64,000 nucleotides of DNA from Corynebacterium fournieri (GTDB lineage: Bacteria; Actinomycetota; Actinomycetes; Mycobacteriales; Mycobacteriaceae), in the NCBI RefSeq assembly GCF_030408775.1, contig NZ_CP047210.1, positions 2,170,001 to 2,234,000 of the forward strand. Reading direction: 5' to 3'. The notes under the pieces are model-generated. The model ran no database searches and had not been told where the DNA came from. It saw nothing but the letters and a program-made list of their open reading frames with translations. Made by a program: the position numbers and the translations under genes. Below, one piece after another: positions 28,252-45,144 of this stretch (position 1 is its first letter; each line of letters starts with the position of its first letter).

Positions 28252-29724
28252 TTACTCGTAGCGAAGCGAGCTGAGCATCCCGGTTTCCATGTGATAGGCG
28301 TTATGGCAGTGAAATGCCCACTCACCGGGGTTGTCAGCGATCAGGTCGGCGATCATGGTTTCACCGTGGCGGAGAAGGACAGTGTCCTTGCGTAGCCCGT
28401 CGCTGCCGGGCAGCGCCCACGTGTGGCCGTGGATGTGCATGGGATGGGGCATCATGGTCCTGTTGCGCATGACCATCCGCAGGCGCTGGCCCTCCTGCAC
28501 GGTCGCGGAGGAGGATTGGCCGTCGGTGAGAATGCTCCATTCATACGGCATCATCTGCCCGCCCAGGTCGATGCTGACTTCTCGGTCTGCTGTGCCCTCG
28601 GGCAGGAGTGCACGGTCTGCTGGCTTCAGGGAGGACAGAAGCAGTCCGGTGGACGACAACTCGGGGAAGTCGACATCGGGGCGGGGGGCCTGGCCGCCGG
28701 CGGTGCGGATGACGGCGAAGGCGCGGTCGTCCTTACCCACCGCCAATGCCGTGAGCGGGAAGATGCCGTCGCCGAGGATGACCTCGACGTCGACACGCTC
28801 GCCCATCGACAGGTAGATCGATTCGGTCTCCAAGGGCTGGACAGGGAAGCCGTCGGTGTGGGTGACGGTCATGCGGTGACCACCGAGGGCCACCTTGAAG
28901 ATGGTGTCACCGCCGGAGTTGATAAACCGCAGGCGGGCCTTGTCGCCCGGGCGAGCCTCGAAGGTCCGGTGAGCACGGGGGATACGCCCGTTGATGAGGT
29001 AGTGCGGATACATCACATCGCCGGCATCCCCGCCCAGTACCCGGTCCGGGGTGCCGTGCATCATCTGGCCGTGACCTCCCATTCCGTTATGGTCGCCCGA
29101 ACCCATTCCGGTGAGCTTGTCGAGCTCACCGTCGGGAGTGCCCTGAATGCCATCGACCCAGTCGTCGAGCACGATGGTCCACTCGACGTCCTGATCCTCA
29201 GCGTCGTCCGGGTCGCGGACGATCAGAGGGGCGTGCAGACCCCGGTCGAGTTGCAGGCCGGTGTGGGAATGGTAGAAGTAGGTGCCACCGTGGGGGACTT
29301 CAAAAACATAGGAGAAAGACTCGCCAGGTTCAATGGGGTCCTGGGTCATGCCGGGCACACCGTCGGCTGCGTTGTGGAGTGCGATGCCATGCCAGTGGAT
29401 GGAGGTGCTCTCAGGCAGTTCATTGGTGATATCGACCTGCAGGACGTCGCCGGCGGTGGCCTCAATGGCCGCATCCCCGGTGTCAGAGACGTATCCCCAC
29501 GTCTTGGCTTCGATGCCGCCGATATCCAGGGAGAGGGGCCGGGCGGTCAGTGTCCGGCGCACCGTCGGCTCACCGAGCGCAGTGGGGGTGGGAGTGGGGC
29601 GAAGGGAGGGACCTGGTGCCGAGGCAGCGGGTCCAGGGTCGCTGGTGCAGGCGGCCACGGCCCCGGTGCCGGCGAGGACGAGCCCGCCGAGCAGAAACTG
29701 TCGTCGGGAAAACGCGTTCGTCAT
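28252..29724 (-). CDS. copO: Exported multicopper oxidase (CopO/CueO type)
   Basis: It oxidises Cu(I) to the less toxic Cu(II) outside the membrane. The 490-residue chain has a Tat signal (SRRQFLLGGLVLAG) with a following AACTS that may be a lipobox. All four copper-ligand blocks are present: HWHG (about 108), YFYHSHTG (about 150), HPMHIHGHTWAL (about 440) and HCHNAYHMETGM (about 475), covering the type 1 and type 2/3 sites. It is the second gene after cueP. C. glutamicum has the same oxidase next to copRS. Confidence 0.93.
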   Translation of the reverse strand: MTNAFSRRQFLLGGLVLAGTGAVAACTSDPGPAASAPGPSLRPTPTPTALGEPTVRRTLTARPLSLDIGGIEAKTWGYVSDTGDAAIEATAGDVLQVDITNELPESTSIHWHGIALHNAADGVPGMTQDPIEPGESFSYVFEVPHGGTYFYHSHTGLQLDRGLHAPLIVRDPDDAEDQDVEWTIVLDDWVDGIQGTPDGELDKLTGMGSGDHNGMGGHGQMMHGTPDRVLGGDAGDVMYPHYLINGRIPRAHRTFEARPGDKARLRFINSGGDTIFKVALGGHRMTVTHTDGFPVQPLETESIYLSMGERVDVEVILGDGIFPLTALAVGKDDRAFAVIRTAGGQAPRPDVDFPELSSTGLLLSSLKPADRALLPEGTADREVSIDLGGQMMPYEWSILTDGQSSSATVQEGQRLRMVMRNRTMMPHPMHIHGHTWALPGSDGLRKDTVLLRHGETMIADLIADNPGEWAFHCHNAYHMETGMLSSLRYE

Positions 29725-29795: not shown

Positions 29796-30371
29796 TCACG
29801 TCAGGCGCAGGTCTGTGACACAGGTGGCACCGTCGTCGGTGGTGGAAAACTCCGTGGAGCCGGTATGCCCCTGGTAGCTGACCTCAATCAGGCCGGTGAC
29901 ATCATCGGGAAGCCAGAAGCCAATAAACCCGTTGTCGAAGGTGGTTGTCGCCTCGTCCACCAGTACCTCACCGGTCGCCTCATCGGTGATCGTGACCTGG
30001 ATATCCTCATTGTCGAGTTCCCCCTGGCAGGTCGTGAGGCTGTGGTAGAAGCAGTCGTGGGTGGAGGTGAGATAGGGTGCGATCGAGACATACGTCTGAT
30101 TGTCGGGAAGATCGAGCGCGACTTCCTGGTCATCGCTCGAGAGCAGTAGTTCATCGGCACGCACTGAGGCGATCAGATCCGTGGGACGCTCAGTGACCTT
30201 CTGCCGGTCGAGGTGATCAATGATCTCCACCGCGTCCATGTCGGCCAGGCCATGGGTAGTCAGGAATGTGTCCTGGGACTCCGTCCCGTCGGCGGTGGGT
30301 TCCGGGTCGGCGGCCGAACACCCCGTGAGGGCGAGGGCAAGGGCCGCGGCTGCGATCGCTGCTCGTTTCAC
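29796..30371 (-). CDS. cueP: CueP-family copper-binding lipoprotein
   Basis: A periplasm-side (here envelope) copper-binding protein; Salmonella CueP is the characterised member. The 191-residue chain starts at GTG 30371 with AAGGAG upstream (MKRAAIAAAALALALTGCSA, lipobox LTGC). CueP signatures follow: TTHGLADMDAVEIIDHLD, the metal-ligand region STHDCFYHSLTTCQGEL (two Cys and His) and C-terminal ATCVTDLRL. A longer in-frame start at 30446 lacks a ribosome site. It is divergent from copR; the CopR box lies between them. Confidence 0.88.
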   Translation of the reverse strand: MKRAAIAAAALALALTGCSAADPEPTADGTESQDTFLTTHGLADMDAVEIIDHLDRQKVTERPTDLIASVRADELLLSSDDQEVALDLPDNQTYVSIAPYLTSTHDCFYHSLTTCQGELDNEDIQVTITDEATGEVLVDEATTTFDNGFIGFWLPDDVTGLIEVSYQGHTGSTEFSTTDDGATCVTDLRLT

Positions 30372-30696
30372 GTCAATCTCCTTGGATCGTGGTAGGACCG
30401 TGAGAAGACACCGCCTCAAGGTCGATGCCATACCTTTATCTAGCACGGGTGCCTGACGGACTAGGATTCAAAAACCCTGCTCAAAGCCTTATAACAGGGC
30501 GAAAAGGGGGTGAATTCGGTGGGCTGGGTCACCATCGGGACACCACCTCTCAGCCGTGGGCGATGTCGTTCTACCCGCCCCGGGTATGCGGTGCAGGCAG
30601 TGAAATCCCTGGTGGCGCCTGCTGAACCGACGAGGAGAGGCGATGCCGCCGGCCCGGGGTGGGGCACAGGGGTGACGGCGGTCGAAGGGTGATGTT

Positions 30697-30716
30697 TGAA
30701 GATTTGATGAAGATTT
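30697..30716 (+). promoter_or_regulatory. CopR binding site
   Basis: Two exact direct copies of TGAAGATTT separated by GA, at 30697-30705 and 30708-30716. This is the operator reported for C. glutamicum CopR in the equivalent copR/cg3286 intergenic region (recalled, not looked up). It lies 57 bp before the copR start. The remainder of the 402-bp intergenic stretch (30372-30773) shows no gene. Confidence 0.88.
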
Positions 30717-30773
30717 CCCGCCGGGCACTGAGCGAGGGTGGTATTCCCCCTTGCCGGAGCGATACTGGGGTCT

Positions 30774-31496
30774 ATGGCTGACCGCACACCGACCACCGCC
30801 ACGCCCCCGGGGCGGGTGCTGGTCGTCGATGATGAACAACCCCTGGCTCAGATGGTGGCCTCCTATCTCATCCGGGCCGGCTTCGATACCCGCCAGGCGT
30901 ACACCGGCACCCAGGCCGTGGACGAGGCCCGTCGCTTTTCCCCCGATGTTGTGGTGCTGGACCTGGGGCTGCCCGAACTCGACGGCCTGGAGGTATGCCG
31001 ACGGATCCGCACCTTCTCGGACTGCTACATCCTCATGCTCACCGCGCGTGGCAGCGAGGACGACAAGATCAGCGGTTTGACCCTGGGGGCGGATGACTAC
31101 ATCACCAAACCTTTTAGCATCCGGGAACTGGTGACCCGGGTGCATGCGGTGCTGCGCCGCCCGCGCACCAGCACCACCCCACCGCAGGTGACCACCCCCT
31201 TGATCGTTGGTGACCTCATCCTTGACCCCGTCGCCCATCAGGTGCGGGTGGGGGAGACGACCGTGGAGCTCACCCGCACGGAGTTCGAGCTGCTGGTTGC
31301 CCTGGCCCTGCGCCCCGGCCAGGTGCTGACCCGCCACGACCTGGTCACCGAGGTCTGGGACACCACCTGGGTCGGTGATGAACGCATCGTCGATGTCCAC
31401 ATCGGCAACTTGCGTCGCAAGCTCGGCACCGACACCCGGGGCCGGGGGTTGATCGACACCGTGCGTGGCGTGGGCTACCGGGTGGGGCAGCCATGA
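30774..31496 (+). CDS. copR: Copper-responsive OmpR-type response regulator CopR
   Basis: This 240-residue regulator has a receiver domain (VLVVDDEQ; phospho-acceptor Asp63 in VVVLDLGLPELDG; Lys in YITKPFS). An OmpR winged-helix domain spans about 140-238 (ELTRTEFELLVALALRPGQVLTRHDLVTEVW...VHIGNLRRKLG). With CopS it would activate the copper genes when extracytoplasmic copper rises. ATG 30774 is used; 12 extra residues from 30738 are promoter-like sequence. It overlaps copS by 4 bases. The cognate operator is immediately upstream. Confidence 0.95.
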   Translation: MADRTPTTATPPGRVLVVDDEQPLAQMVASYLIRAGFDTRQAYTGTQAVDEARRFSPDVVVLDLGLPELDGLEVCRRIRTFSDCYILMLTARGSEDDKISGLTLGADDYITKPFSIRELVTRVHAVLRRPRTSTTPPQVTTPLIVGDLILDPVAHQVRVGETTVELTRTEFELLVALALRPGQVLTRHDLVTEVWDTTWVGDERIVDVHIGNLRRKLGTDTRGRGLIDTVRGVGYRVGQP

Positions 31497-32620
31497 ATCA
31501 CGGACCCGGCCTGACCTTCCGCTTCCTGGCCGCCCAGGTGTTGGTCGTGGTGATTAGCCTGCTGGTGGCCGCGGCCGTGGCCACGATGGTGGGCCCGACC
31601 CTGTTCCAGGATCATATGTTGATGACCGGCCGGGAGTACCCCTCGCTGGAGCTGTTTCATGCCGAGCAGGCCTACCGGGACGCCAACCTGATCACCCTGG
31701 CCGTTGCCCTGCCCACCGCCTTGATCAGCGCCCTGCTGGCCAGCCTGTGGTTATCGCGTCGCCTGCGCACCCCCCTGCAGGATCTCACCCGCGCCGCTAC
31801 CAGCCTGACGGCGGGCGACTATCGTATCCGCGTGCCCGCCGGAGAAGCAGGCCCCGAGGTCACCACCCTGGCGCATGCTTTCAACACCATGGCCGACCGG
31901 CTGGAACACACCGAACAGGTCCGTCGCCAGATGCTCTCTGATCTGGCCCACGAAATGGGCACCCCCTTATCGGTGCTCACGGTCTACCTCGATGGTCTCC
32001 AGGACGGGGCCGTGGACTGGAATAATGCCACCCACACGATCATGGCTGACCAACTCACCCGCCTGACCCGGTTGATGGAAGACATCGACGATGTCTCCCG
32101 GGCCCAGGAACACCGGATCGATTTGGACCTGGCGGAGGAAGGACTCGGGGATCTGCTCCATACCGCCGCTGCTGCCGCGGGGGAAGCTTATGCTGTCAAA
32201 GGCGTCGATTTATAGGTCGAGACCATTACGGACACCGCCCGGGTGCTCGTGGACCGGCAACGCTTCGGCCAGGTGATGAGCAATCTCCTGTCGAACGCGC
32301 TACGGCACACCCCGGCCGGCGGGCAGGTCCGGATCAGCGTCCACCGACAGGGGGCGTCCACCGCGCTCATCCACGTCGCCGATGACGGCGAGGGCATCCC
32401 ACCTGGCCAGCTCGGACACATCTTCGAACGCTTCTACCGGGGGGATGCCGCCCGCAGCCGGGACAACGGCGGGGCCGGTATCGGTCTGACCATCTCCAAG
32501 GCATTGATCGAGGCCCACGGCGGCACTCTCACCGCTACCTCCCCCGGACCCGGTCGCGGAGCGGTGTTTACCCTCCGCCTCCCACTGTCCCCTCCCGACA
32601 GTGAGGAGGCTGCTCGGTGA
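31493..32620 (+). pseudogene. copS: Copper sensor histidine kinase CopS, interrupted by an in-frame TAG
   Basis: The reading frame from ATG 31493 to TGA 32620 would encode 375 residues, but codon 241 is TAG (32213-32215). No shift is needed: the same frame continues in full on the other side. Before the stop: two membrane helices around a 50-residue sensor loop, HAMP, and the HisKA domain with LSDLAHEMGTPLS (phospho-His about 152). After it: HATPase with N box SNLLSNALRHTP, DDGEGIP and GGAGIGLTI. The DHp and ATP domains are thus separated. It may be a null allele, two separately translated pieces (a GTG exists at 32243), stop-codon readthrough, or a sequencing error. The last 26 codons are duplicated at 44629. 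Confidence 0.88.
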
Positions 32621-32659
32621 CCACACCCTGCCCCGCGTGAGGGCCGTGCCCTCCACCTC

Positions 32660-32690
32660 TTGAAAATGTACCCCGGGGGGGGTATATGCT
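32660..32690 (+). promoter_or_regulatory. Promoter with CsoR-type operator (copy 1)
   Basis: TTGAAA (-35, 32660-32665) and TATATG/TATGCT (-10, 32683-32690) flank the palindrome TACCCCGGGGGGGGTA (32669-32684). It matches the pseudo-palindromic TACCC...GGGTA sites bound by copper-sensing CsoR repressors. Bound repressor would block polymerase; copper would release it. It drives the chaperone and probably copB. Confidence 0.8.
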
Positions 32691-32732
32691 AGCGAGCGTT
32701 ACCGCATCCCACCGACCCATAGGAGCTTTCCC

Positions 32733-33059
32733 ATGACCAACCCCCCGCCCCGCCTCTTGCCGATGACCTCTCACGGCTGCAGCTGTTGCGGACCTGCCTC
32801 ACGTGCCGACACCGCCTCCATCCCTGCCGCCAGCGACTCGTCAGCAGGAGGGTCCTCGCCGAGCTACCAGGTCACCGGCATGACCTGCGGGCACTGCGTG
32901 AAAAGCGTGACCCAGGCCCTTCAGGCCCTGCCTCAGGTCGACGACGTCCAGATTGATCTCGCTGCTGGTGGTGTTTCCACCGTCAGGGTCACCGGTGTCG
33001 TACCTCCGGAGATGGTTCGCCGGGCCATCGAGGAGGCCGGCTACACCGTCTTATCCTGA
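32733..33059 (+). CDS. Copper metallochaperone with HMA domain, copy 1
   Basis: This 108-residue protein has an N-terminal Cys-rich tag (SHGCSCCGPAS) and a Ser/Ala linker. An HMA domain (about 45-108) carries the Cu(I) motif G-M-T-C-G-H-C. It would carry copper to the CopB or CopA pumps. The start ATG 32733 has AGGAG 8 nt upstream. copB follows 52 bp later. A C. glutamicum chaperone gene lies in the same position between copS and copB. The near-identical copy is at 44818. Confidence 0.9.
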   Translation: MTNPPPRLLPMTSHGCSCCGPASRADTASIPAASDSSAGGSSPSYQVTGMTCGHCVKSVTQALQALPQVDDVQIDLAAGGVSTVRVTGVVPPEMVRRAIEEAGYTVLS

Positions 33060-33111: not shown

Positions 33112-35343
33112 ATGAGCACTCCCCACCATTCCGGTGATCACCATGGTGATCACCCCGCTCCGGAAACAGGCCACACCCACCACCCGGATCATGCCAGCCA
33201 CGAACACCACGCAGATGCCGACACCCACGGCCAGGCGATGCCGCACGATCACCCGCACTCCGCCATGGACGAAGACCACCACGTTCATAGTCACGGCGAA
33301 CACGCCGGACACAGCACCGCAATGTTTCGGGACCGCTTCTGGTGGTCGCTGATTCTGTCCATTCCCGTCGTTATTTTCAGCCCCATGGTCGCCCAGCTGC
33401 TCGGCTACCACCTCCCGGCATTCCCCGGATCCACCTGGATCCCCCCGGTGCTGGGCACGATCATCTTCGTCTACGGCGGAACGCCTTTCCTCAAGGGCGG
33501 ATGGAACGAACTGAAATCCCGCCAACCCGGGATGATGCTCCTGATCGCCATGGCCATCACCGTGGCGTTTGTCGCCTCCTGGGTCACCACTCTGGGGCTG
33601 GGCGATCTTGACCTGGACTTCTGGTGGGAGTTGGCCCTGCTGGTGACCATCATGCTGCTGGGCCACTGGCTGGAGATGCGTGCTCTCGGGGCCGCGTCCT
33701 CCGCGCTTGACGCGCTGGCTGCCCTGCTGCCGGATGAGGCCGAGAAAATCATCGACGGGACCACCCGCACCGTGGCCATCTCCGAGCTGGTCGTCGACGA
33801 CGTCGTGCTGGTGAGGGCCGGTGCCCGGGTGCCGGCCGACGGAACCATCCTCGACGGAGCCGCCGAATTCGATGAGGCGATGATCACCGGCGAATCCCGT
33901 CCCGTCTTCCGCGACACCGGTGACAAGGTGGTCGCCGGTACCGTGGCCACCGACAACACCGTCCGCATCCGGGTGGAGGCTACCGGCGGGGACACCGCCC
34001 TGGCCGGGATCCAACGCTTGGTTGCCGACGCCCAGGAGTCCTCCTCCCGGGCCCAGGCCCTGGCGGATCGGGCGGCGGCGTTGTTGTTCTGGTTCGCGCT
34101 GATCTCCGCTCTGATCACCGCGGTGGTGTGGACCATCATCGGCAGCCCGGACGATGCCGTGACGCGCACGGTCACGGTACTGGTCATCGCCTGCCCGCAC
34201 GCCCTGGGCCTGGCGATTCCGCTGGTCACTGCGATCTCCACCGAGCGGGCCGCGAAATCCGGGGTGCTCATCAAGGACCGGATGGCGCTCGAGCGGATGC
34301 GCACCATCGACGTGATGCTCTTCGACAAAACCGGCACCCTAACCGAGGGGGCGCACGCGGTCACCGGTGTCGCGGCAACTGTCGGCGTCACCGAGGGCGA
34401 GCTGCTGGCCCTGGCCGCCGCCGCGGAGGCCGACAGCGAGCACCCCGTGGCCCGCGCCATCGTGGCGGCCGCGGCCGCCCATCCCGAGGCCTCCCGTCGG
34501 CAAATCCGTGCAACTGGTTTCAGCGCCGCCTCCGGCCGGGGGGTCCGGGCCACTGTCGATGGCGCTGAGATCCTCGTGGGCGGGCCGAACATGCTGCGCG
34601 AGTTCAACCTCACCACCCCGGCCGAGCTCACCGACACCACCAGCGCGTGGACCGGGCGTGGGGCCGGTGTGCTCCATATTGTCCGCGACGGTCAGATCAT
34701 CGGCGCGGTGGCCGTCGAGGACAAGATCCGCCCCGAATCCCACGCCGCCGTGAAAGCCCTGCAGGACCGCGGAGTGAAGGTCGCGATGATCACCGGTGAC
34801 GCGCAGCAGGTGGCCCAGGCGGTTGGCAAGGACCTGGGGATCGATGAGGTCTTCGCCGAGGTCCTGCCCCAGGACAAGGACACCAAGGTCACCCAGTTAC
34901 AGGAGCGTGGCCTGAGCGTGGCCATGGTCGGCGACGGTGTCAACGACGCCCCCGCTCTGACCCGCGCGGAGGTTGGTATCGCCATCGGGGCCGGCACGGA
35001 TGTGGCCATGGAATCTGCCGGGGTGGTCCTGGCCAGTGACGACCCGCGGGCAGTGCTGTCGATGATTGAGCTCTCGCAGGCCAGCTACCGCAAGATGATC
35101 CAGAACCTCATCTGGGCCTCTGGCTACAACATCCTCGCCGTGCCGCTGGCCGCCGGCGTGCTCGCCCCGATCGGGTTCGTGCTGTCCCCGGCCGTGGGCG
35201 CGATCTTGATGTCTGCCTCGACCATCGTGGTGGCCCTGAACGCCCAGCTGTTGCGCCGCATTGATTTGGATCCGGCCCACCTGGCTCCGACCGACGGGAA
35301 GGAGGAGAAGGCTGCTATGAGCTCTGCAGCCCCCGTCCGCTGA
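33112..35343 (+). CDS. copB: CopB-type copper-exporting P-type ATPase
   Basis: This 743-residue P1B-type ATPase has a His-rich N-terminal metal-binding tail (about 20 His in the first 70 residues) in place of HMA domains. The transmembrane metal motif is C-P-H (VIACPHALGL, about 358-362), typical of the P1B-3 CopB group. The actuator ITGES, phosphorylation site DKTGTLT (about 404) and hinge [12 protein letters not shown] (about 603) are intact. It would pump copper out of the cytoplasm. The first 22 codons recur as a truncated copy at 45197. Confidence 0.95.
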   Translation: MSTPHHSGDHHGDHPAPETGHTHHPDHASHEHHADADTHGQAMPHDHPHSAMDEDHHVHSHGEHAGHSTAMFRDRFWWSLILSIPVVIFSPMVAQLLGYHLPAFPGSTWIPPVLGTIIFVYGGTPFLKGGWNELKSRQPGMMLLIAMAITVAFVASWVTTLGLGDLDLDFWWELALLVTIMLLGHWLEMRALGAASSALDALAALLPDEAEKIIDGTTRTVAISELVVDDVVLVRAGARVPADGTILDGAAEFDEAMITGESRPVFRDTGDKVVAGTVATDNTVRIRVEATGGDTALAGIQRLVADAQESSSRAQALADRAAALLFWFALISALITAVVWTIIGSPDDAVTRTVTVLVIACPHALGLAIPLVTAISTERAAKSGVLIKDRMALERMRTIDVMLFDKTGTLTEGAHAVTGVAATVGVTEGELLALAAAAEADSEHPVARAIVAAAAAHPEASRRQIRATGFSAASGRGVRATVDGAEILVGGPNMLREFNLTTPAELTDTTSAWTGRGAGVLHIVRDGQIIGAVAVEDKIRPESHAAVKALQDRGVKVAMITGDAQQVAQAVGKDLGIDEVFAEVLPQDKDTKVTQLQERGLSVAMVGDGVNDAPALTRAEVGIAIGAGTDVAMESAGVVLASDDPRAVLSMIELSQASYRKMIQNLIWASGYNILAVPLAAGVLAPIGFVLSPAVGAILMSASTIVVALNAQLLRRIDLDPAHLAPTDGKEEKAAMSSAAPVR

Positions 35344-35395: not shown

Positions 35396-36058
35396 ATGAA
35401 GCGCACCATCACCATCGCCGCTCTCGCCTTGACCTCCACCCTGGTTTTGTCCGCCTGCGCAGATAACACTGAGGGAGAAAACACCGACACCACGACCATC
35501 GCCACTACGTCCGCCCCCGACACCACCGAAACGACCGGGGCCACCACGGATCCTGAGACAGAGACGGGGGCGGCCGGAGAGGTCTCCGCCGAGCACAATG
35601 ACGCGGACATCATGTTCTCGCAGATGATGATCCCGCATCACCAACAGGCCGTGGAGATGAGTGAAATCCTCCTGGCCAAGGACGATATCCCGGCCGAGGT
35701 CATCGAGTTCGCCCAGGGTGTTATCGATGCCCAGGGGCCGGAGATCGACCGGATGAATACCATGCTCGAGACCTGGGAAGAAGATCCGGTCACCGGTGAT
35801 ATGGGTGAGATGGACCATGGCGGGATGAGTGGAATGATGAGCGAGGAGGACATGACAGCCCTCGAGGACGCCAAGGGCACCGAGGCTGCCCGGCTCTACC
35901 TTGAGCAGATGACCGCCCACCATGAGGGCGCGGTCGATATGGCCCGCGAAGAGGTCACTGATGGCCAGAACCCGCAGGCCATCGCTCTGGCTGAGCAGGT
36001 CATTGAAGATCAGGAGGCCGAGATCGCCGAGATGGAGCAGATGCTCAACGAGCTCTGA
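35396..36058 (+). CDS. DUF305 copper-associated lipoprotein
   Basis: This 220-residue exported protein has a lipoprotein signal (ALTSTLVLSACAD) and a Thr/Glu-rich linker. The DUF305 ferritin-like helical domain has two His/Met-rich repeats: DIMFSQMMIPHHQQAVEMSE and LEQMTAHHEGAVDMAREE, with a Met/His-rich loop GEMDHGGMSGMMSEEDM between. Such proteins are common in copper and silver islands and are thought to bind metal outside the membrane. It lies 52 bp after copB, probably the same operon. Confidence 0.88.
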   Translation: MKRTITIAALALTSTLVLSACADNTEGENTDTTTIATTSAPDTTETTGATTDPETETGAAGEVSAEHNDADIMFSQMMIPHHQQAVEMSEILLAKDDIPAEVIEFAQGVIDAQGPEIDRMNTMLETWEEDPVTGDMGEMDHGGMSGMMSEEDMTALEDAKGTEAARLYLEQMTAHHEGAVDMAREEVTDGQNPQAIALAEQVIEDQEAEIAEMEQMLNEL

Positions 36059-36145: not shown

Positions 36146-37198
36146 ATGCCGAATAAAATCAAGGTTGCAGTAAACGGGTACGGTGTCATCGGTAAACGTG
36201 TAGCCGACGCGGTGAGAGCCCAGGAAGACATGGAACTCCTCGGGGTCAGCGACGTCACCACCGATTACCGGGTCGCCACCGCCATCACGCAGGGCATCCC
36301 GGTCTATGCCTCCACCGAAGAAGCCCACCAAGAGATGAGCGCTGCCGGATATCCCATCGCCGGGAAACTACCGGACCTGCTCGACAACGCGGATGTCGTG
36401 GTGGACTGCACCCCGTCCACCATCGGGGCCGGCAACCTCGACCTCTATCGCACCCATGGAGTCAAGTCCGTGTTCCAGGGCGGGGAGAAGCACAGTCTCA
36501 CCGGCCACTCCTTCGTTGCCCACGCCAACTACAGTTCCACGCTTGGACGCGACACCACCCGCGTGGTTTCCTGCAACACCACCGGCACTGTCCGCACCCT
36601 TATCGCACTCCAGGACGCTGGATTGCTGTCCAAAGCGCGGGGAGTGCTTGTCCGCCGGGCCACCGATCCGTGGGAATCCGACCACTCGGGGATCATGAAC
36701 ACCATAGTTCCCGAAGGTCGTATTCCCAGCCATCAAGGCCCAGACGCCCAGTCGGTGGTCCCCGACCTGGATGTGGTGACCATGGCGGCCAAGGGAGCGC
36801 ACACCCACAACCACCTGCATTTCTGGACCATCGAGCTAACCCGCCCGGCAGACACAGAAGAGGTTCTCGAAGCGTTGAAGGCGATGCCGCGGATCGCTTT
36901 CGTGCGGCGCTCCGATGGAATCGTGGCGGTCAACAGCACCGTCGAATTGATGCGAGATCTAGGCCGGCCACGGGGCGATATGTATGAGGTCGCCATCTGG
37001 GAAGATATCCTGACCGTGCAGGGCAATGAGTTGTTCTGGACGTACACGGTCGACAACCAGGCCATCGTCATCCCCGAGAACATCGACGCAATCCGTGCCC
37101 TGGCTGGCACCGTGGAAGACGGTGATGAGTCCATCCAGCGCACCGACCGTGCCCTGGGGGTGCGCGCGGACTTTTTCTCACCTCTGTCCAACGGCTGA
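36146..37198 (+). CDS. Type II (archaeal-type) glyceraldehyde-3-phosphate dehydrogenase
   Basis: It oxidises glyceraldehyde-3-phosphate to 1,3-bisphosphoglycerate with NAD(P). The 350-residue protein is not GapA-like but matches the archaeal family: VAVNGYGVIGKRVADAV (Rossmann loop), VVDCTPSTIGAGN, FQGGEKH, catalytic Cys143 in VVSCNTTGTVRTL, PSHQGPDAQSV, and AHTHNHLHFW, which by eye carries the second catalytic His. Archaeal enzymes usually have His-His in the PSH(H)GPD block; here it is His-Gln. A ribosome site (GGAAGG) precedes the ATG. It lies 87 bp after the DUF305 gene on the same strand. Confidence 0.9.
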   Translation: MPNKIKVAVNGYGVIGKRVADAVRAQEDMELLGVSDVTTDYRVATAITQGIPVYASTEEAHQEMSAAGYPIAGKLPDLLDNADVVVDCTPSTIGAGNLDLYRTHGVKSVFQGGEKHSLTGHSFVAHANYSSTLGRDTTRVVSCNTTGTVRTLIALQDAGLLSKARGVLVRRATDPWESDHSGIMNTIVPEGRIPSHQGPDAQSVVPDLDVVTMAAKGAHTHNHLHFWTIELTRPADTEEVLEALKAMPRIAFVRRSDGIVAVNSTVELMRDLGRPRGDMYEVAIWEDILTVQGNELFWTYTVDNQAIVIPENIDAIRALAGTVEDGDESIQRTDRALGVRADFFSPLSNG

Positions 37199-37220
37199 TT
37201 CCAGCAGGAGACACCCACGG

Positions 37221-37261
37221 CGGTGCCCGACCCAGATCGCTCATGTCCGGGTCGGGCACCG
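37221..37261 (+). terminator. Hairpin after the type II GAPDH gene
   Basis: CGGTGCCCGACCC (37221-37233), a 15-base loop, and GGGTCGGGCACCG (37249-37261): a perfect 13-bp stem. There is no clear T-run, but strength and position, 22 bp after the stop and before a convergent gene, fit a terminator for both directions. Confidence 0.7.
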
Positions 37262-37309
37262 CTGTATAAGCAGTTGATCAGGCGCACCGCGCCTTTTCGG
37301 AAGGCGTAG

Positions 37310-38186
37310 TCAGGTGCGTGAGGCTTCCGCGATAGTGCCGATTGTTTCATCCAGGACAGCGTCGAATTCGCGGTCGTCCTGGGTGACGGTGAGCCCTTCG
37401 GTCAGGGCGCGGGAGAAACTGGCGACTATTCCGGGGTTGCGTGCCAGGCGAGCGTTAGCTTCCGCGCGAGTAGCCGCCTGATAGTGCCAGCACCCGCGGA
37501 TGTTCCACGAGCTCGCGGTAGAAGTCATCAGTTTCGGGAAGCGTCAGTTTGAGGATGACCGCCTGGTCCTCCTTCAGCTGGTCGAGCTCTTTGCGCAGGG
37601 TCACCCGGAGCTGGTCTTCTACCTCGATCTTCCGGGGGCTGTGGATGTCGACCTCAGGCTCGACAATGGGTACCAGCCCGAACCGGAGGATCTGCTGAGC
37701 GATCGCGAACTGCTGCGCAACGACAGCGTCCACCCCCCCCTCCCCGGGAAGCCTGATGAACGAGCGCATTTTGGTGCCGAACATGTGCTTGCTTACCGCA
37801 CGCTCGAGCAGGTTGTCCAGATCAGGGAGGGGCTTCATGACCTGAGCCCCGTGGGTTTCTTCCGCCAGGCCCTTGTCAATCTTGAGGAACGGCACAATGT
37901 CTTTGACTTTCCACAGATAATCCCCTGTAGGCATTCCCCCGATGTCGCGGTCCATTGTGTCCTCGAACAAAATCGCCCCGAGGATCCGGTCACCGTCGAA
38001 ACTGGGGCTGGTAATGATGCGCGTGCGCATCTTATGCACCAGACCAAACATCTCCTCCCCACTGGAGTAGGCGTCCTCGTTGATCCCATAAAGTTTCAGC
38101 GCTTTCGGGGTACTGCCCCCGCTTTGATCCAACGCCGCGATGAAGCCGGTACCGGCCCTGACCTTGTCGTATTTTCCTACGTCCAT
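37310..38186 (-). pseudogene. fda: Class I fructose-bisphosphate aldolase with one-base frameshift
   Basis: It would split fructose-1,6-bisphosphate through a Schiff-base lysine, without metal. The frame from ATG 38186 ([27 protein letters not shown]) resembles the bacterial class I aldolase to ALSGGYSR, with the likely catalytic Lys in AVILKLTLP. It then reads G-S-stop (TAA at 37455-37457). One base removed at GG 37462-37463 restores the family C-terminus [20 protein letters not shown] to a TGA at 37310. The last 50 or so residues are therefore out of frame. Either a young pseudogene or a sequencing error. The 250 bp upstream to 38437 hold no gene I can support. Confidence 0.85.
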
Positions 38187-38437
38187 GAAACGTCCTTCCG
38201 CCTAGCGAGTTGTGACCATGTCGTGGAGCCCACTGTGCCCCGGTCCCAGGCAACTGTGCTCGTTGTCGTATCCCGGTACGGTTCCAGTCCAGTTAGGTAA
38301 ATACCGAGGATCTGCGTCATGACGGTTCTTCCCCGGTGGTGCCCGGCCAGCGTGGGTCTTCGGCAGCTGTGCTCTCCGCCGAAGGGAACCGGTCATGCTC
38401 CTGGCTTCGGCCTGCTTGGCAGACATCATGGGTTTTC

Positions 38438-39163
38438 TCACCTGGTTAGGTCCGGGGTAGGTTTGTTCTGCAGGCCGCGTCGTGCCTCGAATAGGTCCGT
38501 TGACTCCCCACCGGCGAGTTCCACATACGCTCCCGCGCTCCCCACGTAGATGGGTGGCGCAGTACTGGGGTGTAGTCGGATCAGGAGACTATCGATGCTC
38601 AGGGCAACATCGATCAGGTGCCCGCGGTACTGGATCTGGAATTCCACTTTTTCCAGGTGGGTACGCAGTCGAGGATCGAAGGTAAGGGCGTTGGCTTCGG
38701 TCTGAAGACCGGCAAAAGAGCGGGTTAGGATATCCACCGTGCCCGCCATCGCACCCAGATGAATTCCTGCGCGGGTGGTTCCCTCCTGGGTGTCATCCAG
38801 GTCCGCGACCACGGCTTCGCGGAAAAGGGCCCAGGCCCGGTCCTCGTTGAAGCGGGAGAGCACCGAGGAATGGACCACCCGGCTGAGTGTGGATCCTTCT
38901 GAGCTGCGGGACACGTAGTACTCTACGGTGCGTTTCAGGTCAGTTTCGGAGAAGGAATAACCGAGCCTGCCGAGTTGGTTGATGACACCGGTTGGTCCCA
39001 ACAGATAGATGAGCATCAGTACGTCGGCCTGTTTGGCCAGTTTATACCGATTGGTGGTGTCGTTTTCGGCTTCCAGGATCAGGTCGAGCCGACCGATATT
39101 GCCGTACGATGTCAGTAACCGAAACCAAGCGCTGACCGCTATCCTGCGCATCGGCCCGCCCAC
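38438..39163 (-). pseudogene. Glycoside hydrolase family 65 phosphorylase, C-terminal fragment
   Basis: The 241 codons match only the C-terminal third of GH65 disaccharide phosphorylases (trehalose, maltose or kojibiose type). Visible are KQADVLMLIYLLG, VEYYVSRSSEGSTLSRVVHSSVLSR, the conserved TRAGIHLGAMAGTVDILTRSFAGL, and the beta-rich C-terminal cap. The catalytic barrel N-terminal to this, about 500 residues in the family, is absent: upstream lies the cupin gene region. The fragment should be inactive. It is on the same strand as fda and may be left from a larger sugar-phosphate cassette. Confidence 0.75.
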
Positions 39164-39306
39164 GGAGGATCCCTACCACTGACACGTCAGAGTCCACTTT
39201 TTACGTACTGCGTTAACTTCTTGGGCCATCAGGGAAAGCGCATGAACAAAAACATGGTCTCCTCACCATTCGATGCTTCCCAGACCGGCTCCGAAAGGTT
39301 GTTTAT

Positions 39307-39642
39307 ATGCACAAAATATCGATCGAGGCCCTCGCCCGCAAGCAACTTAAAGAGGCCGTCATCGCCCCTAGTGCTCGTGCCGCCGATACCGTCTTCGGCG
39401 GACACGAAAAAGTTCTGCGGCAGACCGTCGTCGGGATACGTCAGGGTGCCGAGCTCGGAGAGCGCGACAATCACGATGAATCCACGATTTATGTCCTACA
39501 AGGGCGTGTCCAACTCAGGACGGGCGATGAGACCTGGATAGGTCGCAGCGGTGATCTGTTGATCGTGCCGCGATCTCGGCACAGCCTCGAGGCAATCGAG
39601 GACTCCGCTGTTTTGATCACCATTGCCAAACTGAAGCAATAA
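39307..39642 (+). CDS. Small cupin-domain protein
   Basis: This 111-residue single cupin has motif 1 GERDNHDESTIYVLQGRVQL (metal-ligand-like Glu/His positions, but not the full G-x5-HxH) and motif 2 GDLLIVPRSRHSLEAIEDS. It is predicted to be a small cytosolic beta-barrel, perhaps metal or sugar binding. AAAGG lies upstream of ATG 39307. The function is not predictable; context is the metabolic cargo of the copper island. The 271 bp to fdxA contain no gene that I can support. Confidence 0.78.
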   Translation: MHKISIEALARKQLKEAVIAPSARAADTVFGGHEKVLRQTVVGIRQGAELGERDNHDESTIYVLQGRVQLRTGDETWIGRSGDLLIVPRSRHSLEAIEDSAVLITIAKLKQ

Positions 39643-39913
39643 GAAAGATAGGGACTTCCCCTGGGGTGTTTGAGCCCGCCGAGGGTCCGTTTTTCGCGGC
39701 GAGACCATGGACCGGCACCGTTCGATCACCGGCCTCCTGTCGCTGATGTTTGTACCAGCATGCGACGGTGACCAGCTGACCGGTTCCACTATCCTTACCG
39801 CTACTGGCGGCGGGGGTAATCGAAGATATGTGCCCATTGGTGAAGGATCGGGGAGCTAGTAGGATGACAGTGAACCTATTTTCCACGTCTTTATCCGTAG
39901 TATCGGAGATCCG

Positions 39914-40237
39914 ATGACCTACACAATCGCCCAGCCCTGCGTTGATGTCCTGGATCGAGCCTGCGTCGAAGAATGTCCCGTGGACTGCATTTACGAGGGC
40001 AAACGGATGCTCTACATCCACCCCGACGAGTGCGTCGACTGCGGTGCCTGCGAGCCCGTTTGCCCGGTTGAGGCCATCTTCTACGAAGACGATGTCCCAG
40101 ACAAGTGGGTGGACTACATCGACGCTAACGCCGCCTTTTTCGACGACCTCGGTTCGCCAGGCGGTGCCGCCAGCCTGGGTCCGCAGGACTTCGACGTCCA
40201 GCTCGTTGCGGCGCTGCCGCCACAGAACCAGAACTAG
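39914..40237 (+). CDS. fdxA: 7Fe ferredoxin, FdxA type
   Basis: This 107-residue electron carrier has a 3Fe-4S/4Fe-4S arrangement: [14 protein letters not shown] (cluster 1) and [12 protein letters not shown] (cluster 2). The C-terminus (DPQ-like [11 protein letters not shown]) is the corynebacterial/mycobacterial FdxA extension. The sequence looks like the housekeeping corynebacterial protein, so this is probably a second, island-borne copy. GGAG lies 8 nt before ATG 39914. IS6-like terminal repeats begin 10 bp after its stop. Confidence 0.93.
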
Positions 40238-40246
40238 GACCTGATA

Positions 40247-40989
<743 letters not shown>

Positions 40990-41182: not shown

Positions 41183-41524
41183 TCACCGGGCGAAACGGGC
41201 GATAGCGTCGGTGACTTCCTGGAACTTGGCGTCGGCCTCCTCTCCTCCTAACTTGGCGGCGTCACGGACGCAGTGTTTCATGTGGTCATCGAGTAGTCCC
41301 AGGGCAACGCTGCGTAGGGCAGCATTGACCGCGGAGATCTGGGTAAGGATGTCGATGCAGTACTGTTCCTCGTCGACCATGCTGTGCAGGCCCCGGGCCT
41401 GTCCCTCGATGCGCTTGAGGCGGGCGAGATAGCGATCCTTGTCGTTGATGTAGCCATGGGTGGTGTGACAGGTGTCGGCCCCACCCGAAGAGGAAACGGT
41501 CTGATCAGGGGTGCGAGTATCCAC
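41183..41524 (-). CDS. csoR: Copper-sensing repressor CsoR
   Basis: This 113-residue all-helical repressor releases DNA when it binds Cu(I). The ligands are intact and correctly spaced: Cys56 (EEQYCIDIL), His81 and Cys85 (LLDDHMKHCV), i.e. the 25- and 4-residue spacing of M. tuberculosis CsoR. The start is GTG 41524 with AAGGAG 6 nt upstream; the longer upstream frame is not family-like. It is downstream of copA. Three TACCC...GGGTA operators in the island (32669, 44598, 44755) are its likely targets. Confidence 0.93.
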   Translation of the reverse strand: MDTRTPDQTVSSSGGADTCHTTHGYINDKDRYLARLKRIEGQARGLHSMVDEEQYCIDILTQISAVNAALRSVALGLLDDHMKHCVRDAAKLGGEEADAKFQEVTDAIARFAR

Positions 41525-41613
41525 AATGGTCTCCTTGCTGAAAAAAAGGGGGCAGGTATGTCCTGAGTCAGTTGCGGGTCGATCAGGATGGAAAGCCCGA
41601 GGGTATGGAATGA

Positions 41614-41641
41614 GGCGTGAGAACCTCATGGTTCCCACGCC
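41614..41641 (-). terminator. Hairpin between copA and csoR
   Basis: GGCGTGAGAACC (41614-41625), loop TCAT, GGTTCCCACGCC (41630-41641): a 12-bp stem with one mismatch. It lies in the 292-bp gap 41525-41816 and may end the copA transcript or form part of the csoR leader. No T-run follows. The rest of the gap holds no gene. Confidence 0.45.
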
Positions 41642-41816: not shown

Positions 41817-44153
41817 TTAGGCGGTGACCGGCTGCCGCACGGAGGGGCGAGCGGGCTGCGGTGAGGAACTTGTGTTGTCGTGGGAGGACTTGAATCTACG
41901 CAGCGTGAGGGAGTTGGAGACCACGAACACCGAGGAGAAGCCCATCGCAATGCCCGCCAACCCCGGGTTGAGGAAACCGATCGCGGCGACCGGGATCAGC
42001 ACGACGTTGTAGGCGAACGCCCAGAACAGGTTGCCCTTGATGGTGCCCAGCGTGCGACGTGACAGACGGATGGCATCGCCCGCGGAGCGCAGGTCGTTGT
42101 TCATTAAAGTGATATCGGAGGCCTCGATGGCGACATCCGTGCCCGCCCCCATGGCCAGACCCAGATCGGCCTGGGCCAGGGCGGCCGCGTCATTGACGCC
42201 GTCGCCGACCATGGCGACCTTCTTGCCCTCATGTTGTAGCTTCTCGATGACCGCGACCTTGTCCTGCGGCATGACCTCGGCACTCACATTGGCCGCATCG
42301 ATGCCCACCTCTTGGGCGACGGCGGCCGCGGCCTTCGCGTTATCGCCGGTGAGCAGGTACGGCCTCAACCCCAGCCTGCGGAACTGGGCGACCGCTTCCG
42401 CTGAGGAGTCTTTGATGACATCGCGCACCACGACCACACCGGCGGGCTGGTCATCGACGTAGACAGCCACCGGGGTCGCGCCCTGCGACTGTGCGTGGTC
42501 GAAGGCGGTGGTGAGGTCACGGGGCAGCTGGCCGGCGGGGCGGCCGACGGTGACGACGTGACCCTTGACGGTGGCCGTGACGCCCCGGCCGGCGGTGCTG
42601 TCGAAGTCGGTGGCCTCCTGGATGTTCCCGGAGCGCTCGGCCTCGGTGACAATCGCCTTGGCGATGGGGTGCTCGGAGCCTGCTTCGACGGCCGCCGACA
42701 AGGCGAGGACCTCGTTGTTGGTGTAGCCGTCGGCGGCGTGGACGCCGGTGACCGACATGACCCCGGAGGTGACGGTGCCGGTCTTGTCCATGACGATGGT
42801 GTCGACCTGGCGGGTGGATTCAAGGACCTCCGGGCCCCTGATCAACAAGCCAAGCTGTGCGCCCCGGGAGGTGCCCACCAGCAGGGCGGTCGGGGTGGCC
42901 AGTCCCAGGGCGCATGGGCAAGCGATGATCAGCACCGCGACTGCGGCGGAAAAGGCCCAGTTCGCCCCGCTGCCGGCGGCGAGGTGGACGATCAGGGTGA
43001 TGATGGAGACGACAATGACCGTCGGGACGAAGACCGAGGAAATCTTATCCACCAGGCGCTGGACCGGGGCTTTTTTCGCCTGGGCGTCAGTGACCAGCTT
43101 GGCCATCTGGGACAGCGTGGTCTCCGAACCTGTGCGGGTGACTTCGACCAGCAGTCGACCGGAGGTGTTGATCGTCGCGCCCGTGACCGGGGTGCCGGGG
43201 GCGGCCTCGACGGGAACGGACTCGCCGGTCAGCATCGACTCGTCGATGGCCGAGGTGCCCTCGATGACACGACCGTCGGTGGCGATCTTCTCACCCGGGC
43301 GGACGACGAAGACGTCACCGACTGTCAGCTGGGAGACCGGGACGCGGACTTCCTCACCGTCGCGGATCACCGCGGCGTCTTTCGCACCCATGTCCAGCAG
43401 GGACTTCAGCGCCGCGGAGGACTGGCCCTTGGCGCGGACCTCAAACCACCGGCCGAGCAACAGGAAGGTGATGACTACGGCGATGGTCTCGAGGTAGATG
43501 TGGTCCATGCCGTCATCGCGGGGCAGCAGGCTCATCTCCATGACCATGCCGGGGTGCCCGGCGTTGCCGAAAAACAAGGCCCACAGCGACCACAGATACG
43601 CAGCAGTAGTGCCCAGAGACACGAGTGTGTCCATCGTGGTCGAGCCGTGACGCAGGTTGGTTAAGGTCGCCCGGTGGAACGGGGCGCCACCGTAGAAGTA
43701 GATCAGGGTGGACATGACGAGTAGGGCCCACTGCCAATTCATGAACTGCAGGGACGGGATCATCGAGATCGCGACCACCGGAACGGAGAGGATCGTCGAC
43801 CCGATCAGACGCGACTTCAGGTCTGTGGCCTCGGCCTCGCGGGCCTGTTCGTGGCGGTCACCGACCACCTCGGTGTCCTCCTCCGGGCCGCTGTCCACGG
43901 CGGAGGCGTGTTGATCCCCCATGGTGAACGCGTCGTATCCGGCACCCCGCACGGTTTCGATCAGCCGATCGGCGTCGACTTTGGTGGGGTCGTAACTGAC
44001 GGAGGCGGATTCGGTGGCGAAGTTGACGGTGGCCTCCACGCCATCGAGCTTGTTGAGCTTGCGCTCCACCCGCCCTGAGCACGACGTACAGGTCATGCCG
44101 GTGACGCCCAGATCGACCTGGAATAGGTCAACCGACGGTTGAGTTTGAATCAT
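41817..44153 (-). CDS. copA: CopA-type copper-exporting P-type ATPase
   Basis: This 778-residue P1B-1 Cu(I) exporter has one N-terminal HMA domain with GMTCTSC (about 20-25), the membrane motif [11 protein letters not shown] (about 411), actuator LTGES, phosphorylation loop DKTGTVTSG (about 454), the ATP-binding EHPIAKA and hinge [13 protein letters not shown]. It is distinct from the CPH-type CopB, so the island encodes two export pumps. It is followed on the same strand by csoR and preceded by copZ, the classic copZ-copA-csoR set. Confidence 0.97.
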
Positions 44154-44323: not shown

Positions 44324-44533
44324 TTAGGGCTTGACGGTGTAGCCGGCTGTCGTGACAGCGGCGACAACATCGTCGTCGGTGAAGTTTTCACCCGTGACGG
44401 TCACCTGCCCGGTATCCACGGTGGCCTCCACCATGGTCACACCGGCGACCTCGCCGATCTCCTCCTCCACGGAGGACTTGCAGTGTCCACAGGTCATGCC
44501 TTCGATGATGTACTTCTTTGTTACGGCGCTCAT
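44324..44533 (-). CDS. copZ: Copper chaperone CopZ
   Basis: This 69-residue single HMA domain has the Cu(I) motif GMTCGHCKSSVEEEIGEV and a typical beta-alpha-beta ending TTAGYTVKP. ATG 44533 has AAGGA upstream; an extra in-frame Met at 44587 is in the leader. It delivers Cu(I) to CopA, encoded 170 bp downstream on the same strand. It is under a CsoR-type operator. Confidence 0.93.
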   Translation of the reverse strand: MSAVTKKYIIEGMTCGHCKSSVEEEIGEVAGVTMVEATVDTGQVTVTGENFTDDDVVAAVTTAGYTVKP

Positions 44534-44597
44534 CAGATGATCCTTTCCTTGATGTCCTGAGGGGCAGAAGTGGAGGTGCCCCAACAACCTTCAACCT

Positions 44598-44623: not shown

Positions 44624-44745
44624 AGGTGCCCGGACCCGGTCGCGGAGCGGTGTTTGCCCTCCGCCTCCCGCTGTCCCCTCCCGACAGTGAGGAGGCTGCT
44701 CGGTGACCACACCCTGCCCCGCGTGAGGGCCGTGCCCTCCACCCC

Positions 44746-44775
44746 TTGAAAATGTACCCCCGGGGGGTATATGCT
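44746..44775 (+). promoter_or_regulatory. Promoter with CsoR-type operator (copy 2)
   Basis: TTGAAA (44746-44751), operator TACCCCCGGGGGGTA (44755-44769) and TATGCT (44770-44775). The centre is five C and six G, against four C and eight G in copy 1, which makes this copy the more symmetric palindrome. Confidence 0.8.
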
Positions 44776-44817
44776 AACGAGCGTTACCGCATCCCAACGA
44801 CCCATAGGAGCTTTCCC

Positions 44818-45144
44818 ATGACCACCTCCCCGCCCCACCTCTTGCCGATGGCCTCCCACGGCTGCAGCTGTTGCGGACCCGCCTCACATGCCGACACCGC
44901 CTCCACCCCTGCCGCCAGCGACTCGTCAGCAGGAGGATCCTCCCCTAGCTACCAGGTCACCGGCCTGACCTGCGGGCACTGCGTGAAAAGCGTGACCCAG
45001 GCCCTTCAGGCCCTCCCCCAGGTCGACGACGTCCAGATTGATCTCGCCGCTGGTGGTGTTTCCACCGTCACGGTCACCGGTGCCGTACCTCCGGAGATGG
45101 TTCGCCGGGCCATCGAAGAGGCCGGCTACACCGTCTTATCCTGA
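44818..45144 (+). CDS. Copper metallochaperone with HMA domain, copy 2
   Basis: This 108-residue paralogue of the protein at 32733 differs at about nine positions. The Met before the copper-binding T-C-G-H-C is Leu here (GLTCGHC). The Cys-rich tag SHGCSCCGPAS is kept. ATG 44818 has AGGAG 7 nt upstream. No intact pump gene follows, only a copB stub, so this copy would act as a free copper buffer. Confidence 0.88.
   Translation: MTTSPPHLLPMASHGCSCCGPASHADTASTPAASDSSAGGSSPSYQVTGLTCGHCVKSVTQALQALPQVDDVQIDLAAGGVSTVTVTGAVPPEMVRRAIEEAGYTVLS

Follow-up and report, generated by a model that had tools for sequence, protein, structure and literature searches.

Copper genes and metabolic cargo at the locus

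We analyzed a 64,000-nucleotide stretch (hereafter, the window) of Corynebacterium fournieri, corresponding to bases 2170001–2234000 of a 2.39-Mb single-contig genome (NCBI reference sequence no. NZ_CP047210.1), in which genes of central carbon metabolism lie inside a copper-resistance region. The region extends from a multicopper oxidase gene (28252) to the end of a heavy-metal-associated (HMA) protein gene (45144). Its one intact metabolic gene of this kind encodes a type II (archaeal-type) glyceraldehyde-3-phosphate dehydrogenase (GAPDH-II; 36146..37198, + strand). The protein scored above both curated cut-offs (TIGR01546, 342.2 bits, cut-off 232.9; NF003251, 457.2 bits, cut-off 185) and matched both models over their full length (residues 7–339 and 4–341, respectively). 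The gene starts 87 bp after a co-oriented DUF305 gene, the gap containing no listed terminator-like site on the + strand, and is the last of a copR-copS-HMA-copB-DUF305 run that lies downstream of a perfect CopR box.

This box, a perfect direct repeat TGAAGATTTgaTGAAGATTT (30697..30716, + strand), is located between cueP and copR, 57 bp from copR. The run comprises the response regulator gene copR (30738..31496, +; 73% to the copy on plasmid pCETAM in tblastn), the histidine kinase gene copS (31493..32620, +), an HMA protein gene (32733..33059, +; PF00403, 57.8 bits), copB, encoding a P1B ATPase with the CPH motif and MSASTIVVALNAQ (33112..35343, +; TIGR01511, 572 bits), and the gene of a DUF305/CopM-like lipoprotein (35396..36058, +; PF03713, 161 bits; NF049983, 94 bits). 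Divergently oriented are the genes for a CueP-type copper-binding protein (29796..30446, −; PF21172, 198 bits) and a multicopper oxidase of the copO type (28252..29724, −; three Pfam Cu-oxidase domains, 78% to the pCETAM copy). The copR/copS pair, the divergent cueP-copO genes and the CopR direct repeat mark this as a CopRS-controlled corynebacterial cluster, with copS interrupted by an in-frame stop at codon 241. The stop was seen in the window only, the nine other clusters checked being free of it; the window genome may be impaired in its CopRS-mediated copper sensing.

The original prediction had read the genes at 36146–40237, between copB/DUF305 and csoR/copA, as a possible "copper-proof glycolysis" module made up of a type II GAPDH, a class I aldolase, a GH65 phosphorylase fragment, a cupin and an FdxA ferredoxin. 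The named genes are indeed grouped there, and most of them are broken. The class I fructose-bisphosphate aldolase (37310..38186, −) is a frameshifted pseudogene in which the PRK05377 match is split over two frames: 38186–37455 covers profile positions 5–245, and 37528–37310 covers positions 244–295 of 297. At 377.2 bits against a cut-off of 392, no full-length open frame exceeded the cut-off. The break near residue 243 is common to two other Corynebacterium genomes, G187 (locus L004) and G002 (L096, which has an extra break), so that a sequencing error was rejected as an unlikely source (G and L numbers denote our genomes and loci). The GAPDH-II DNA of G002 is identical to that of the window (1053/1053 bases). 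The GH65/beta-phosphoglucomutase (betaPGM) gene is a remnant (38438..39163, −) encoding only the C-terminal 233 residues, which match residues 820–1052 of a 1052-aa fusion protein. Neither a phosphoketolase gene nor csp, the name used here for the gene of a four-helix copper-binding protein (PF03860), was found in the window region. A working alternative glycolysis module is therefore not what the window holds. The host's own GapA is retained, as are a further GAPDH and a class II aldolase.

The intact island and its CopR-type boxes

Two of the intact islands lie on plasmids, pCETAM of C. comes and pCmarinum1 of C. marinum, where the cop genes are followed by GAPDH-II, a convergent aldolase gene, GH65/betaPGM, phosphoketolase and csp. 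The layout is thus copR-copS-HMA-copB-DUF305-GAPDH-II facing csp-phosphoketolase-GH65/betaPGM-class I aldolase. In 242 Corynebacterium genomes, full-length GAPDH-II was present in 14 and fragments in five; the other nine matches (18.6–21.8 bits, all partial) were dropped as noise. All 19 genes, full-length or fragmentary, lie directly downstream of DUF305, and the gene grouping exceeds chance. Thirteen of the 14 full-length genes have no internal stop, G037 carrying the exception, and in the five fragment genomes only the first 43–76 residues are left. Within the fetched stretches of the 14, the aldolase and the phosphoketolase were each intact in six and the GH65 fusion in five, and csp was present in nine. 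Aldolase remnants were seen close to copB in two further genomes (G004 and G018). copB itself, at ≥86% identity, occurs in at least 84 of the 242 genomes; the 84 matches listed include 13 of the 14 full-length GAPDH-II genomes, the five fragment genomes and 66 genomes with neither, while in the remaining full-length genome, G187, copB is partial. Most simply, this would mean that the cluster once included the module and is losing it piecemeal, GAPDH-II going last. Since the Corynebacterium copies are closely related, they represent few independent events, and the evidence across genera and phyla described below is the stronger part. The assumption that Corynebacterium normally uses a class II aldolase applies to most genomes; a class I aldolase of the PRK05377 family exceeded the cut-off in 28 of the 242, six times in the island and 22 times elsewhere.

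The CopR box links the island to a characterized regulon. In the accessible parts of the C. glutamicum report, a CopR site with a repeat identical to the window box, and likewise located in the divergent intergenic region, was tested by band shift and drives both divergent gene groups (PMC3140484). Like the island, that CopRS regulon (cg3281–cg3289) holds tlpA, copO and a secreted protein gene on one side and copR, copS, HMA and copB on the other; unlike the island, it includes no GAPDH, aldolase or phosphoketolase as far as those parts of the report go, and a single CopR site is reported for the genome, whereas the islands have a second (PMC3140484).

A scan for the CopR repeat with up to three mismatches in 44 actinobacterial loci (894 kb) gave 47 sites, distributed over 29 loci: 18 of the 19 from Corynebacterium and 11 of the 25 others. 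The 29 non-actinobacterial loci (568 kb) yielded no site at this threshold and 11 with four mismatches; dinucleotide shuffles (100–200 of each of three sources) yielded none at three mismatches, and two matches arose in 120 shuffles at four. Of the 19 Corynebacterium clusters, all but L101 have the first box, 57–60 bp upstream of copR. A second, CopR-type box lies 105–108 bp upstream of csp in all eight scannable Corynebacterium loci (L005, L007, L008, L009, L019, L053, L097 and L099), several of which are near-identical; the record of the ninth csp locus, L052, ends before the corresponding position. In the same eight loci this second box also lies 243–246 bp before the divergent gene ydhK (DUF1541; 22923–23531 in L053), which shares it with csp. 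Downstream of the second box, the csp islands carry phosphoketolase, GH65/betaPGM and aldolase where these survive; csp and the second box have been lost in the window.

The second-box spacing is kept in Micrococcus (L012), where a box 108 bp before csp is followed by the aldolase gene. Sediminivirga (L013) has a box 45 bp before the GH65 open frame, and Brevibacterium has four-mismatch boxes at the matching place in L014 and approximately 100 bp before csp in L027. In three Rhodococcus plasmids, sites were detected 270 (L061), 569 (L060) and 637 bp (L054) upstream of phosphoketolase. Loci lacking a site include Nesterenkonia L010, where a CsoR-type gene lies between copB and GAPDH-II, Pseudarthrobacter L056 and all seven loci from the phylum sample described below. 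As a whole, the sequence evidence gives good support to a predicted link between copper and the metabolic block in corynebacteria and the genera nearer to them, in agreement with the idea that the metabolic and copper genes form one unit: GAPDH-II ends the cop run behind one CopR box, and a second, CopR-type box stands at csp. Another CopR-type box, in Brevibacterium antiquum (L014, 17590–17609), is located 492 bp before a copA-like gene, which suggests CopR control of copA in that species.

Linkage of GAPDH-II to P1B ATPases

To look beyond Corynebacterium, we used 48 related loci obtained from a search of genome contigs that started at exact peptides and so favors close relatives; many of the flanks end at contig ends, and the phylum names given to these loci are in part presumed. 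When a P1B ATPase was called by DKTGT plus a CPC, CPH or CPD motif, 31 of the 48 loci contained one. Outside Corynebacterium, a P1B ATPase lay near GAPDH-II in 22 of 39 loci, against 1.0 expected from the locus lengths and the mean ATPase density of 20 searched genomes. For the 20 of these loci whose own genomes were searched, the count was 16 against 0.67 expected; these genomes were hand-picked, mostly for long flanks, and the ATPase was present in 16 of the 20 picked loci and six of the 19 left out, so that the 39-locus count is the fairer one. The associated P values (3e-21 and 2e-25) overstate independence because both sets contain close relatives, the 20 including five Acidobacteriota and five or six Balneolota. 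Of the 27 type I GAPDH genes over the cut-off in these 20 genomes, none had a P1B ATPase within 10 kb, the nearest being 11.6 kb away.

When open reading frames around 45 chosen loci were clustered, the P1B ATPase was the commonest neighbor family (28/45), followed by an isoprenylcysteine-methyltransferase-like protein (15/45), with families resembling antisense shadows set aside. Of 37 plasmid records found, 16 were chosen and examined; a P1B ATPase lay within 10 kb in 12 of them against 6.7 expected (P 0.004; Fisher combined P 0.03), a modest linkage, because all 16 plasmids carry P1B ATPases and most carry several. In a sample of 396 Actinomycetota genomes, GAPDH-II exceeded the cut-off in 14, that of the window included. 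Among the other 13, a P1B ATPase was found in seven of ten close relatives (53–68% identity) and in none of three distant ones (33–35%), for which the stretches measured only 3.9, 7.9 and 17 kb.

The nearest ATPase is CopB-like (CPH) in Corynebacterium, Nesterenkonia, Micrococcus, Brevibacterium and Sediminivirga, as well as in four Acidobacteriota and seven Balneolota/Bacteroidota loci. It carries CPC in Meiothermus, Calidithermus, one Acidobacteriota locus (L040) and one Balneola locus (L048), and CPD in Kocuria, Arthrobacter, Rhodococcus, Pseudarthrobacter and Pseudomonadota. Such CPD ATPases recur near GAPDH-II (L015, L016, L020, L054, L056, L057, L060–L064, L066 and L067). Micrococcus, Sediminivirga and Brevibacterium keep the order copB-DUF305-GAPDH facing a convergent aldolase, and Nesterenkonia has copB-csoR-GAPDH facing the aldolase. 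The co-occurrence anticipated in the original prediction was thus found: GAPDH-II, class I aldolase and copB occur together in five genera, and GAPDH-II recurs with P1B ATPases. The absence of the set from other metal islands, which had been named as counting against the prediction, was not observed.

A further gene run connects the islands to published copper targets. In Acidobacteriota L029 (3290–11032), L030 and L033, genes for an ATP-cone protein, an AMP-phosphorylase-like protein, the phosphoribosyl pyrophosphate (PRPP) synthetase Prs, CopB, in some cases an MFS protein, and GAPDH-II lie on one strand; the same gene kinds occur in other orders in L042 (Fodinibius) and L063 (Paracoccus, CPD ATPase). 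Eight of the 45 loci contained the Prs family, and eight the AMP-phosphorylase-like family. According to the accessible parts of the S. aureus literature, Prs had no detectable activity with 5 µM Cu(I) in vitro, extra prs improved the growth of a copper-sensitive strain with copper (PMC10249872), and GapA binds Cu(I) and is inhibited by it (PMC6350627), which bears out the choice of GapA as a copper-sensitive step. This kind of gene run therefore brings together isoforms of two enzymes published as Cu(I) targets and a copper exporter. A beta-CASP MBL-fold protein gene was also seen in metal islands, next to the Prs and AMP-phosphorylase-like genes (L058, 2379–3737; L063, 5248–6693; L042, 12759–14135), its product scoring below the cut-offs of its best models.

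Possible roles and flanking features

We lean towards viewing the window cargo as the eroded end of a mobile, CopRS-controlled bypass that would sustain carbon flow when copper inhibits glycolysis, a reading that draws on gene content, order and predicted regulatory sites. Phosphoketolase yields acetyl phosphate, and GH65/betaPGM saves a hexokinase step. CopRS would sense external copper and, along with export, oxidation and storage, turn on a sugar route bypassing the copper-sensitive steps. Glucose 6-phosphate would come from disaccharide phosphorolysis without ATP; phosphoketolase would provide acetyl phosphate without GAPDH, Fe-S enzymes or lipoyl pyruvate dehydrogenase; and the metal-free aldolase and the second, probably NAD-linked GAPDH would carry the remaining flux. 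The benefit could come either from true copper tolerance of these enzymes or from more of an inhibited activity. The window genome would then have lost phosphoketolase, csp and a working aldolase from the region, and the full length of copS, leaving GAPDH-II alone behind copB.

The GAPDH-II sequences bear on these options. Cys143 and His223, which we take to be the catalytic residues, are kept in all 72 GAPDH-II sequences aligned; the enzyme was also aligned to the archaeal structures 1cf2 and 2czc. Asp36 is present in 71 of the 72, where 1cf2 and 2czc have a Lys after beta strand 2. Since Asp36 replaces this Lys, which is no defining feature of the GAPDH-II family models, the enzyme is predicted probably to use NAD rather than NADP, and we rejected NADPH supply as its role on the same ground. 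Position 147 (catalytic Cys +4) is never Cys in the 72 sequences. The lack of this second Cys was rejected as a cause of copper resistance, since the host GapA (SCTTNS) also lacks it; with only two Cys in the host GapA, the same number as in GAPDH-II, no simple reason for copper resistance of GAPDH-II is visible. The label "copper-proof" thus finds no visible basis in the sequence, the residues Cys143 and His223 being kept and the Cys numbers being equal.

Several observations weigh against the bypass. GAPDH-II retains in Cys143 and His223 the kinds of residue thought to bind copper in GapA (PMC10903455, accessible parts). The 66 copB genomes among the 84 listed that lack GAPDH-II both in full and as a fragment (aldolase remnants being present in two), together with several genomes that are losing the module, show that it is dispensable in those Corynebacterium. 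Seventeen of the 48 loci, some on short contigs, have no P1B ATPase by motif, nor do three of the ten close relatives in the phylum sample, and many loci hold genes without a copper link (arginine deiminase, CFA synthase, glycogen enzymes). Fifteen of the 44 actinobacterial loci have no CopR-type site with up to three mismatches; sites in L018, L020, L054, L061 and L027 have no query-set gene close by; the three Rhodococcus stretches gave no match to copRS; and the gaps of 76–251 bp in the csp block give no proof of one transcript. Finally, Fda was not raised by copper in TM medium (0.9-fold) in the S. aureus data consulted (PMC6350627).

The alternative that survives best is that the window cargo is decaying DNA kept by its place behind copB and that GAPDH-II has no present function; we regard this as a serious contender that falls somewhat short of probable. 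The broken aldolase and GH65 genes, the missing phosphoketolase and csp, the truncated copS, and the GAPDH-II truncations in five genomes and stop in G037 all fit decay. So does the dN/dS among the recent Corynebacterium copies (0.23 pooled, as high as 1.0 for single pairs), a value that is uninformative because too few substitutions have accumulated to show constraint. Against decay, GAPDH-II is free of stops in 13 of 14 genomes, whereas the aldolase is whole in only six, and dN/dS between the window GAPDH-II and the plasmid copies is low (0.10–0.13).

It is less likely, in our view, that the island merely adds copies of flux-limiting enzymes with ordinary copper sensitivity, more enzyme restoring flux. 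The S. aureus aldolase Fda presumably belongs to the class I family. The residues and Cys number of GAPDH-II described above would suit such a dosage effect, as would the benefit of extra prs to the copper-sensitive S. aureus strain (PMC10249872) and the rise of GapA (1.4-fold) and Fda (2.3-fold) protein with copper in TSB (PMC6350627), both as given in the accessible parts of these reports. The island isoforms, however, differ in type from those of the host (type II, not type I, GAPDH; class I, not class II, aldolase), phosphoketolase is a bypass and no copy of a glycolytic enzyme, and a duplication of gapA would presumably have sufficed. Least likely is that a module serving general energy or stress needs (phosphoketolase, GAPDH-II, glycogen and membrane-lipid enzymes, arginine deiminase), useful under low oxygen, starvation or envelope stress, hitchhikes on large environmental plasmids that also bear metal resistance: neighbors such as arginine deiminase, CFA synthase, universal stress proteins, NirK and glycogen enzymes and the modest plasmid linkage speak for it, but CopR-type boxes stand at the metabolic block, GAPDH-II directly adjoins CPH ATPases in Acidobacteriota and Balneolota loci, and the distances of GAPDH-II and of the CPH ATPase are correlated across 25 loci (Mantel r 0.92, P 0.0002), a correlation that shared species history would also give.

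GAPDH also occurs as metal(loid)-island cargo in the GAPDH-ArsJ arsenate resistance system, where it makes an arseno-product that is exported; the transporters in the islands studied here are instead P1B ATPases. Arsenate detoxification with ArsJ was rejected as a role, as no arsJ was noticed among the annotated neighbors, no search with an arsJ model having been made.

Extending the bypass reading, we tentatively propose, with more doubt than confidence, that mobile copper islands of several phyla (Actinomycetota, Acidobacteriota, Balneolota/Bacteroidota and, with other P1B ATPases, Pseudomonadota) carry copper-induced replacements for cytosolic steps disabled by Cu(I), namely GAPDH, PRPP synthetase, aldolase and, via phosphoketolase, the pyruvate dehydrogenase step. 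Copper resistance is usually described as pumping, oxidizing and storing copper, and its intracellular targets are being resolved enzyme by enzyme (GapA, Prs, Fe-S enzymes). Such target bypass would add one more strategy of metal resistance to those of export, oxidation and storage, and copper-switched spare enzymes on mobile islands would mark which cytosolic targets matter; the two CopR boxes and few genes in soil and marine corynebacteria would make the idea testable. In the S. aureus copper response, the same activities (GAPDH, aldolase and PRPP synthetase) are copper-sensitive or copper-responsive (PMC6350627, PMC10249872), but the genes there are housekeeping and, as far as the accessible text goes, apparently not direct CsoR targets (PMC10249872), whereas here isoforms lie inside a copper island. 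The metal-independent phosphoglycerate mutase of S. aureus, which maintains glycolysis when metal is limiting, shares the principle of an isoform that does not fail under metal stress; that case, in the part of the report consulted, concerns manganese starvation and one enzyme, and the present one a mobile, copper-controlled set (PMC6684088). Judged by titles and opening abstract lines, none of the matches listed described a copper-linked module of such enzymes in the literature searched, whose scope did not extend to subscription papers and preprints.

Downstream of the GH65 remnant lie the genes for the cupin (39307..39642, +; PF07883, 27.4 bits, 0.2 bit over the Pfam cut-off) and FdxA (39914..40237, +; NF045480, 186 bits). 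Both were missing from the fetched stretches of all five whole-module islands, for which reason we rejected them as module members, contrary to the original prediction; FdxA is itself an Fe-S protein. They were present in six of the 19 Corynebacterium stretches compared, all module-poor (the window, L004, L096, L049, L051 and L102). The two genes are probably a later addition bounded by insertion sequences (IS). An IS-like remnant (40247..40356) has two terminal inverted repeats GGTGCTGTTGCAAA, at 40247 and 40343, and a third such end lies at 40974..40987 (−); we take these ends to resemble those of the IS6 family. Stretches of approximately 845 bp between GGTGCTGTTGCAAA ends were also observed in L097 (19137–19980), L098 (7518–8360) and L099 (6089–6936), and the truncated GAPDH-II genes of G023, G184 and G064 (L083–L085) also have a GGTGCTGTTGCAAA end near the point of truncation.

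The region continues with a csoR/ricR-type copper repressor gene (41183..41638, −; NF052430, 129 bits, below its 175-bit cut-off), copA, encoding a P1B ATPase with the CPC motif (41817..44153, −), and an HMA copper chaperone gene (44324..44587, −; PF00403, 48.5 bits). A stretch containing the end of copS and HMA is directly duplicated (32543–32971 and 44629–45056; 94–97% identical, 12.1 kb apart), and the two copies flank the copB-to-copA segment, for which they may form a deletion substrate.

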